Shown piece by piece: positions 31,816 through 63,726 of a stretch of DNA of 64,000 bases (position 1 is the stretch's first letter; each line of letters opens with the position of its first letter). The stretch is from an uncultured bacterium. Lineage in GTDB: Bacteria > Patescibacteriota > Gracilibacteria > Absconditabacterales > Absconditicoccaceae. The stretch covers positions 1-64,000 of the forward strand of contig CALMFT010000013.1 of the NCBI GenBank assembly GCA_937862565.1. The letters run 5' to 3'. The notes beneath the pieces are model-generated. The model was not told the origin of the DNA. It did not search any database and saw only the letters and a list, made by a program, of their open reading frames with translations. The translations under genes and the position numbers were made by a program.

Positions 31816-32310
31816 ATGTATAAAGCAATTGCAGCTATGGATAAGAATAGAGTAATAGGTAATTCTCAAGATGATATGATTCCTTGGCATTTTAGTAAAG
31901 ACTTTGCATGGTTAAAAGAAAAAACTCTAGGAAGTCCAATTATCATGGGCGCTACTACTTTCAAATCACTAGGTTATAAGGGTTTGCCTAAAAGAACAAA
32001 TATTGTGTTGAGTAAGACATTGAATCAATCTGATTATCAAAATGTACTTATTTACAAGGATGTGCAAGATATTTTGGATAATCATAAAGAGGCTTTTGTG
32101 ATAGGAGGAGCTCAGATTTATAAATTGTTTGCAGAAATGGACCTACTTGATGAGGTAATTCTTACTAAAATTGAGGGAGAATTTGATGGAGATGTAAAGC
32201 TTCCAGAGCTCGAGAAAGGCATGAAGATTGTTGATGAACAAGAGATCGTAGATATGAATAAAAAGGATAATAAAGAATATAATCTGAAATTTGTGACCTA
32301 TAAAAAGTAA
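31816..32310 (+). CDS. folA: Dihydrofolate reductase
   Basis: DHFR regenerates tetrahydrofolate using NADPH. The 164-residue protein has AIAAMDKNRVIGN at the start, the WHFSKDFAWLK substrate segment, IIMGATTFKSLG (NADPH motif), a FVIGGAQIYKLF loop and a C-terminal EYNLKFVTY strand. All family landmarks are in place. It closes the nucleotide block. Confidence 0.95.
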   Translation: MYKAIAAMDKNRVIGNSQDDMIPWHFSKDFAWLKEKTLGSPIIMGATTFKSLGYKGLPKRTNIVLSKTLNQSDYQNVLIYKDVQDILDNHKEAFVIGGAQIYKLFAEMDLLDEVILTKIEGEFDGDVKLPELEKGMKIVDEQEIVDMNKKDNKEYNLKFVTYKK

Positions 32311-32319
32311 TTTTAGTAT

Positions 32320-32384
32320 AAAAAAAGTAGCCGAGTGTAATCACCGACTACTTCATACCATTTCCGAATGAGCTGTTAAGCTTC
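32320..32384 (-). ncRNA. Small RNA candidate 2
   Basis: On the minus strand TTGACT (32418-32413), a 16-base spacer and TATTAG (32396-32391) form a promoter. About 65 bases later a hairpin (32351-32327, GTAGTCG with CGGCTAC) is followed by seven T. The transcript includes a short AGCT-rich hairpin. No ORF of note lies in it. It is the second of two units with the same promoter design. Confidence 0.55.
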
Positions 32385-32390
32385 ATGTTT

Positions 32391-32418
32391 CTAATAAATA
32401 AATGCTTTCCAAAGTCAA
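32391..32418 (-). promoter_or_regulatory. Promoter of small RNA candidate 2
   Basis: TTGACT-N16-TATTAG on the minus strand. The flanking spacer shares ATTTATTTATTAG-like sequence with the promoter at 32544. Confidence 0.55.
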
Positions 32419-32440
32419 AGCAGACTAGGATTTTCTGCAC

Positions 32441-32537
32441 AAAAAAAGACAGTAGTATGGTACCACTGTCTCGATAGGGGAACCCTACCTGGAACAATTA
32501 AAACAACTTTAAAATCAAGAATGAAAAAAAAATTCTA
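32441..32537 (-). ncRNA. Small RNA candidate 1
   Basis: On the minus strand a promoter (32571-32544) precedes a roughly 97-base transcript with two hairpins: GGTAGGG with CCTATC, and the terminal stem GACAGT with ACTGTC (32470-32448) followed by seven T. No ORF is convincing. It lies between the end of the pilin-like gene and candidate 2, and could also be extended from the pilin transcript. Confidence 0.55.
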
Positions 32538-32543
32538 CTCACA

Positions 32544-32571
32544 CTAATAAATAAAACACCCTAAAAGTCAA
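32544..32571 (-). promoter_or_regulatory. Promoter of small RNA candidate 1
   Basis: TTGACT-N16-TATTAG on the minus strand, identical in boxes and spacing to the one at 32391, which argues against chance. Confidence 0.55.
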
Positions 32572-32586
32572 TAGTAATAGTTTTGC

Positions 32587-32952
32587 TTAGATTCTTGCAG
32601 CTACGATATATTGAATGAGTCTGATGATGGTATAAGAAAAGATAACGATACTGAGGCCAATAAGACTATATTTGATTCCATCTGTAGCTTTTGATGCTGC
32701 TTTGGGATCATTTCCACCAGCAAAAATATATCTCAATCCGCTTATAATAAGTCCCATAAACGCCAAAGTTCCTATAAAGAAGGTAGCTCCAAGAAAAATA
32801 TCTGCTACAAAAAGATTGGCATCGTTTGCTTCGGCAGGATCCATGTCTTTTTTGATACCGATGAGTTTATTGTAATCAAAAGTACACTGACCATTGAGTA
32901 ATTGGGCGCTATTACATTCTATGGCTGCTTGTGCGATGAGTGGTGACTGCAT
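32587..32952 (-). CDS. Type IV secretion pilin-like membrane protein
   Basis: The 121-residue protein has an N-terminal soluble part with two cysteines and two long hydrophobic helices: FLGATFFIGTLAFMGLIISG and SLIGLSIVIFSYTIIRLIQY, separated by GGNDPKAASKATDGIK. This is the VirB2/TrbC-like pattern (T4SS pilin family) common in Patescibacteria, where many copies occur per genome. It may build a surface filament. A related protein is at 41.2 kb, and a VirD4-like ATPase at 52.5 kb. Confidence 0.75.
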   Translation of the reverse strand: MQSPLIAQAAIECNSAQLLNGQCTFDYNKLIGIKKDMDPAEANDANLFVADIFLGATFFIGTLAFMGLIISGLRYIFAGGNDPKAASKATDGIKYSLIGLSIVIFSYTIIRLIQYIVAARI

Positions 32953-33970: not shown

Positions 33971-33996
33971 CCGGGGACTTTTGCCTCGGTTTTTTC
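33971..33996 (+). terminator. Intrinsic terminator, copy 1
   Basis: ACCGGGG pairs with CCTCGGT and is followed by six T. The same sequence closes the group at 35998. Confidence 0.8.
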
Positions 33997-34220: not shown

Positions 34221-34652
34221 ATGGAAGTAGCAACTACTAGAGTAAATGAAAGCAATGAATTGCTTATTGTTAATACACAAACTGATGCAAATGATCAATT
34301 AAAACTTACAGAAGAAGAATTATCTTCATATGGATTTTTTAAAACAGGAGGAGAGCTCAATAAGTTTTACTTCTCTGAGTTGAAGTATTTGAAGAGTGAT
34401 CATTTATATGTTAAAGTTTTCACAAAGGATAAAAATTTCTTGCTAAGAGCAAAATTGAGTGATGCAGAATTTTTTTTGCCTTCAGATAAATTCCAGCGCA
34501 TTCATCAAAGGTATATAATCAATATTGATTATATTACTAAAATAACGGTTGATGATGTGTGGATAAATGAACTGGAGCTGCCTTTATCTAAACAATATAA
34601 GGCTGCACTAATAAAACGTCTTCGAGTATTTCCGTGATTAATTATCTGGTAA
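34221..34652 (+). CDS. LytTR-family DNA-binding protein
   Basis: The C-terminal 100 residues fit a LytTR domain: YFSELKYLKSDHLYVKVFTK, FQRIHQRYIINIDYITKI and LPLSKQYKAAL. LytTR proteins bind promoters of virulence, bacteriocin and competence genes in Gram-positives. No response-regulator receiver domain is present (143 residues in total), so the N-terminal 45 residues may sense something else. A UGA glycine at 34635 extends the protein by five residues to TAA. It lies in a group with A-rich leaders. Confidence 0.85.
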
Positions 34653-35997: not shown

Positions 35998-36026
35998 AAC
36001 CGGGGACTTTTGCCTCGGTTTTTTCA
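35998..36026 (+). terminator. Intrinsic terminator, copy 2
   Basis: Identical to the one at 33971 over about 25 bases; it precedes the 3' end of the convergent PSP1 gene. Confidence 0.8.
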
Positions 36027-61441: not shown

Positions 61442-61500
61442 GGGAAATTTCCTAAAAAACCCAATTCATGTAGTTTTTTGTACTGTGTGAATTGGTTTTT
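61442..61500. terminator. Terminator cassette, copy 1
   Basis: A GGGAAATTTCC motif, a short A-run and a hairpin with CCAATTCA/TGAATTGG arms and a T-rich loop, followed by five T. The same cassette occurs at 62403 and 63669. Confidence 0.75.
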
Positions 61501-62402: not shown

Positions 62403-62461
62403 CGGGAAATTTCCTAAAAACCAATTCATGTAGTTTTTTGTACTGTGTGAATTGGTTTTTT
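62403..62461. terminator. Terminator cassette, copy 2 (bidirectional)
   Basis: Same cassette as at 61442. Here it lies between the convergent BRO-N and alanine racemase genes; the alr stop is inside its T-run, and the A-run on the left serves the minus strand. Confidence 0.75.
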
Positions 62462-63668: not shown

Positions 63669-63726
63669 CGAAATTTCCTAAAAAATCAATTCATGTAGTT
63701 TTTTGTGCTGTGTGGATTGGTTTTTT
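63669..63726. terminator. Terminator cassette, copy 3
   Basis: Same cassette with two base changes in the arms (TCAATTCA and TGGATTGG, keeping pairing by G-T) and the same loop. It lies upstream of the last, partial gene. Confidence 0.7.

Follow-up and report, generated by a model that had tools for sequence, protein, structure and literature searches.

Two predicted small RNA genes on the minus strand between a pilin-family gene and folA in an uncultured bacterium of the Gracilibacteria

The stretch of DNA analysed (hereafter the window) comprised 64,000 nucleotides of contig CALMFT010000013.1, from an uncultured bacterium of the Absconditicoccaceae (Gracilibacteria). A gene of the type IV secretion system (T4SS) pilin family and the convergent gene folA were found to be separated by a gap of 276 nucleotides (Table 1). 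No coding sequence (CDS) was present in the gap. On its minus strand, two units of promoter, short transcript and terminator were found in tandem, as the initial annotation had described. The distal terminator (T2) ended about 10 nucleotides from the stop codon of folA, which sits on the opposite strand, and no plus-strand intrinsic terminator for folA was found between folA and position 32587. Relatives of the T4SS pilin were present in 46 of the 49 family genomes.

Table 1. Positions of the genes and predicted elements at the pilin-folA locus, in window coordinates.
Feature	Position	Strand	Basis
T4SS pilin family gene	32587..32952	-	PF18895, Pfam 28.2 bits (cut-off 26.6)
Promoter P1, TTGACT-N16-TATTAG	32544..32571	-	exact match, TTGACTTTTAGGGTGTTTTATTTATTAG
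RNA1, predicted ~98 nt	32440..32538	-	ends inferred from promoter and terminator
Terminator T1, 12-bp hairpin + T7	32446..32472	-	-14.6 kcal/mol; also detected by pattern scan
Promoter P2, TTGACT-N16-TATTAG	32391..32418	-	exact match, TTGACTTTGGAAAGCATTTATTTATTAG
RNA2, predicted ~67 nt	32320..32387	-	ends inferred
12-codon ORF MKLNSSFGNGMK inside RNA2	32348..32386	-	ATG AAG ... TAG, read from sequence
Terminator T2, hairpin + T7	32324..32354	-	-15.1 kcal/mol
folA, dihydrofolate reductase	31816..32310	+	PF00186, 137.9 bits

The recomputed lengths of the two predicted RNAs were close to the 97 and 65 bases originally proposed. RNA1 at full length was predicted to fold with -27.1 kcal/mol (z = -4.5 against shuffles) and contained a U-rich unstructured 5' half, followed by the hairpin GGUAGGG-UUC-CCCUAUC and the terminator hairpin. 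The full-length fold of RNA2 was predicted at -19.1 kcal/mol (z = -3.5), with a small 5' stem-loop, a single-stranded UCGGAAAUGGUAUG stretch and the terminator hairpin. Both RNAs had been taken to be free of open reading frames. This holds for frames of gene size; RNA2 does contain a 12-codon ATG frame, of which the ATG lies 5 nucleotides past the -10 box, in a leaderless-like position, and the stop falls within the 5' arm of the terminator. The two RNAs had further been proposed to be related, and here the alignment gave no support: the local score was 12 against a shuffle mean of 12.4, and 334 of 500 shuffles scored at least as well. A homologous pair of sibling sRNAs was rejected on this ground, and a duplicated unit was rejected since the promoters are the sole similarity between the two units. 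The mutual pairing of RNA1 and RNA2 was no better than that of shuffles (180 of 300 as strong), and among the 77 gene starts of the window neither 5' end preferred any mRNA over shuffles.

Both transcripts were found to end in a hairpin followed by seven T, as had been noted, so that T1 and T2 have the form of the Rho-independent terminator of an sRNA gene. Only 18 intergenic terminator-like hairpins were found in the window, and T1 and T2 were among the stronger ones.

The exact match of the two promoters to TTGACT-N16-TATTAG was confirmed, and the reported similarity of the spacer ends extends the identity to TTGACTTT-N8-TTTATTTATTAG. The first 8 and the last 12 bases of P1 and P2 were identical; the 8 middle bases differed at every position. 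A chance match had been considered unlikely, and when the intergenic region was shuffled 2000 times, no identical promoter-like pair arose; a 28-mer repeat at least as good arose in 2 of 500 shuffles. For the whole window, 0.15 identical promoter-like pairs were expected and 1 was observed; these pair statistics somewhat favour the pair, because the pattern tested was derived from the pair itself. In the 1.27-Mb assembly, the genome search suggested earlier returned P1 and P2 as the sole exact copies with N16. A third match to TTGACT and TATTAG had a 17-nt spacer and was located inside an ORF. Across the genome the motif class showed no enrichment (3 matches, against 4 with the reversed control), and in the one viral contig carrying the motif the similarity ended at the motif. 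Against the plain E. coli consensus, P1 and P2 each matched 9 of 12 positions, which is unremarkable, as 768 sites on both strands of the window matched at least 9 of 12. The significance of P1 and P2 comes from a genome-specific promoter model and not from the E. coli consensus.

This model was obtained by expectation maximisation (EM) from the regions 5' of the tRNA genes in this genome, starting from TTGACA/TATAAT with a free spacer of 15-19. The training was carried out on two disjoint sets of 17 tRNA upstream regions each and on the pooled 34. P1 and P2 were excluded from all of them, and a tRNA located through the P1/P2 motif (L078) was excluded from the unbiased runs. Both disjoint sets converged on a TTGA.. 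-35 box, a spacer of 16 nt in 86-88% and a TTATWAK-like -10 box, giving the consensus TTGAWWTT/TTATWAK with a strict 16-nt spacer. The spacer was 16 in 86-92% across all tRNA sets; ten shuffled sets gave scattered spacers. The tRNA promoters of the genome (loci L014-L043 and L142-L158) have a nearly invariant spacer of 16 nucleotides, one below the usual 17. Among about 128,000 window positions, P1 and P2 ranked 5 and 6 with the first set, 140 and 107 with the hold-out half, and 31 and 38 with the 34 upstream regions. A model from protein-gene upstream regions alone was less clear, and under it the two sites, at ranks 323 and 627, did not stand out. The genome-trained model thus predicts for each RNA a promoter of its own. 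Two tRNA genes in the genome were found to carry TTGATT-N16-TATTAG and TTGATA-N16-TATTAG outright, and the tRNA promoters at L029 and L078 (TTGAT[A/T]-N16-TATTAG) have the same spacer and -10 box as P1 and P2. RNA1 and RNA2 differ from these tRNA genes in that they are not tRNAs and have intrinsic terminators at their ends.

Judged by this model, the design shared by P1 and P2 is the ordinary strong housekeeping promoter of the organism, near its consensus, and its class is probably that of stable RNAs. Transcription of the two units is therefore likelier and a special co-regulation less so. The initial annotation had taken the matching promoters as a sign of co-regulation; they do not show it, because TTGA, the TT after the -35 box, N16 and the TATTAG-like -10 box are shared with tRNA genes of the genome.

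High-scoring promoter sites were enriched between genes: the window has 46 model sites with a score of 11.5 or more, of which 18 were intergenic (8.3 kb) and 28 were in CDS (55.7 kb). Apart from P1-T1 (72 nt) and P2-T2 (37 nt), no promoter and terminator in the window were paired at a distance below 110 nt. When the 18 intergenic sites were placed at random, at least two such pairs appeared in 2.6-5.8% of trials, and for this reason the arrangement of promoters and terminators alone is modest evidence.

The Rfam covariance search of the window returned just a tRNA at gathering score, with nothing meaningful in the region at E up to 10. Known Rfam families (SRP RNA, 6S, tmRNA, riboswitches) were accordingly rejected as the identity of the RNAs. 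RNA2 was also considered as an SRP RNA, since it has a UCGGAAA stretch; this was rejected because it lacks the AGCAG that is conserved on one side of the SRP loop, and Rfam yielded no match. In the whole genome, tmRNA and RNase P RNA were found and the small bacterial SRP RNA family was unmatched at E up to 1, in an assembly that is about 93% complete.

Conservation in relatives had been proposed as a check of the two genes. The full 288-nt query gave matches in A/T runs only among 59 relatives. For the RNA1 core, the search of 49 family genomes gave no credible homologue, the best match having E 0.006 over 18-28 nt, and for RNA2 none appeared in 353 class genomes, where the best match (E 8e-6) was inside an unrelated ORF. 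In 29 relatives, the region 3' of the pilin gene contained no counterpart of the gap. The outcome of the check is thus that no homologue was found in the family or the class, with the genus represented by one genome in the set, and this says only that the predicted RNAs would be young or fast-evolving. The literature searched contained no paper that deals with small regulatory RNAs or with promoters in Gracilibacteria.

Classical intergenic sRNA genes are short, non-coding and intergenic, with their own promoter and a Rho-independent terminator (PMC9438474). RNA1 and RNA2 resemble them in the location in a gap, the predicted promoter and the intrinsic terminator; they differ in that these predicted RNAs, of about 67-98 nt, have no known homologue and that no target was found for them. 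The MicX RNA of Vibrio cholerae is a 3' UTR-derived sRNA made from its own promoter (PMC9438474). RNA1 has the layout of such an sRNA: it follows the pilin gene in the same orientation, and no terminator intervenes between the pilin stop codon at 32587 and T1, which RNA1 would share with that gene. A difference is that P1 is located past this stop codon and not within the ORF.

We consider it fairly probable that two short transcription units, separate from each other, lie on the minus strand of the gap, that is, two predicted small RNA genes with housekeeping promoters and intrinsic terminators. The promoters, terminators and folds are supported by the analysis of the sequence; from these we infer that RNA1 and RNA2 would be transcribed and stable and would act by base pairing. 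P1 and P2, as strong promoters of the tRNA type, would drive both as stable RNAs. RNA1 would sit in the pilin 3' UTR, and T1 is probably shared with the pilin mRNA. Since the start of RNA1 is past the pilin stop codon and its end is at T1, the nearest terminator beyond that codon, the same stretch may serve as 3' UTR of the pilin mRNA and as an RNA in its own right. As constitutive RNAs, the two may use unpaired 5' or middle segments to pair with mRNAs, with the terminator hairpin shielding the 3' end; base pairing, taken by itself, is a tentative mechanism with somewhat less than an even chance. The two RNAs are likely to be ordinary lineage-specific sRNA genes. A bolder version, which we regard as rather unlikely, would make RNA1 and RNA2 the first small RNAs with a regulatory role from a Gracilibacteria lineage, produced from housekeeping promoters at levels like those of tRNAs; RNA1, acting from the pilin 3' UTR, would tie the expression of this surface pilin to other mRNAs.

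T1 and T2 could instead be tandem terminators of the pilin gene. T1 would end the mRNA about 115-150 nt past the stop codon, T2 would be a backup guarding folA, and the promoter boxes would be incidental or weak. Pilin genes in several relatives (e.g., L053, L059, L060, and L070) have a single intrinsic terminator shortly past the stop codon, both T1 and T2 are oriented correctly for the pilin gene, and no other minus-strand element requires them. This explanation leaves two near-consensus promoters, each just 5' of a terminator, without a role, and the matched pair, which no shuffle reproduced, also counts against it; we consider it unlikely. An antisense or interference action against folA is slightly less likely still. 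Here an unterminated folA transcript would enter the gap, RNA1 and RNA2 would be complementary to its 3' UTR over their full length, and the promoters would fire against folA. The convergent layout, the closeness of T2 to the folA stop codon and the gap devoid of a plus-strand terminator agree with this, but every RNA encoded between convergent genes has this geometry, both RNA1 and RNA2 stay outside the coding region of folA, and two terminators would halt interference before folA.

It is improbable that RNA2 serves as a very small mRNA, almost without a leader, encoding the 12-residue peptide MKLNSSFGNGMK; the distance of the ATG from the -10 box would permit a start at the A of the ATG and the in-frame stop precedes the terminator loop, but a frame of 12 codons opening with ATG often arises by chance if only TAA and TAG are stop codons. 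That neither unit is transcribed, the elements having arisen by chance in AT-rich DNA full of weak promoter-like sites (the 768 counted above), is most improbable in view of the tRNA-model ranks, the strong terminators and the matched pair.

Under the favoured reading of two small RNA genes, RNA1 and RNA2 would be two concrete candidates with exact predicted ends, and the promoter model (TTGAWWTT, 16-nt spacer, TTATWAK) is usable for finding more candidates by sequence in such a genome.

Other terminators and short units were also observed. Two identical terminators, CCGGGGACTTTTGCCTCGGTTTTT, were located 2 kb apart at 33971-33994 and 36000-36023, with a series of small ORFs between them, among which is a gene for a LytTR-domain protein (34221-34652). 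At 61462-61495, 62422-62455 and 63687-63720, about 1 kb apart, the window has three hairpins of nearly the same sequence, CAATTCATGTAGTTTTTTGTACTGTGTGAATTGG, with a T run after each. A further unit of promoter, short RNA and terminator was seen at L159 (G000:C12:6700-7600) and L075; its promoter is TTGACTTT-N16-like, and of its two hairpins the second precedes ATG and T6.
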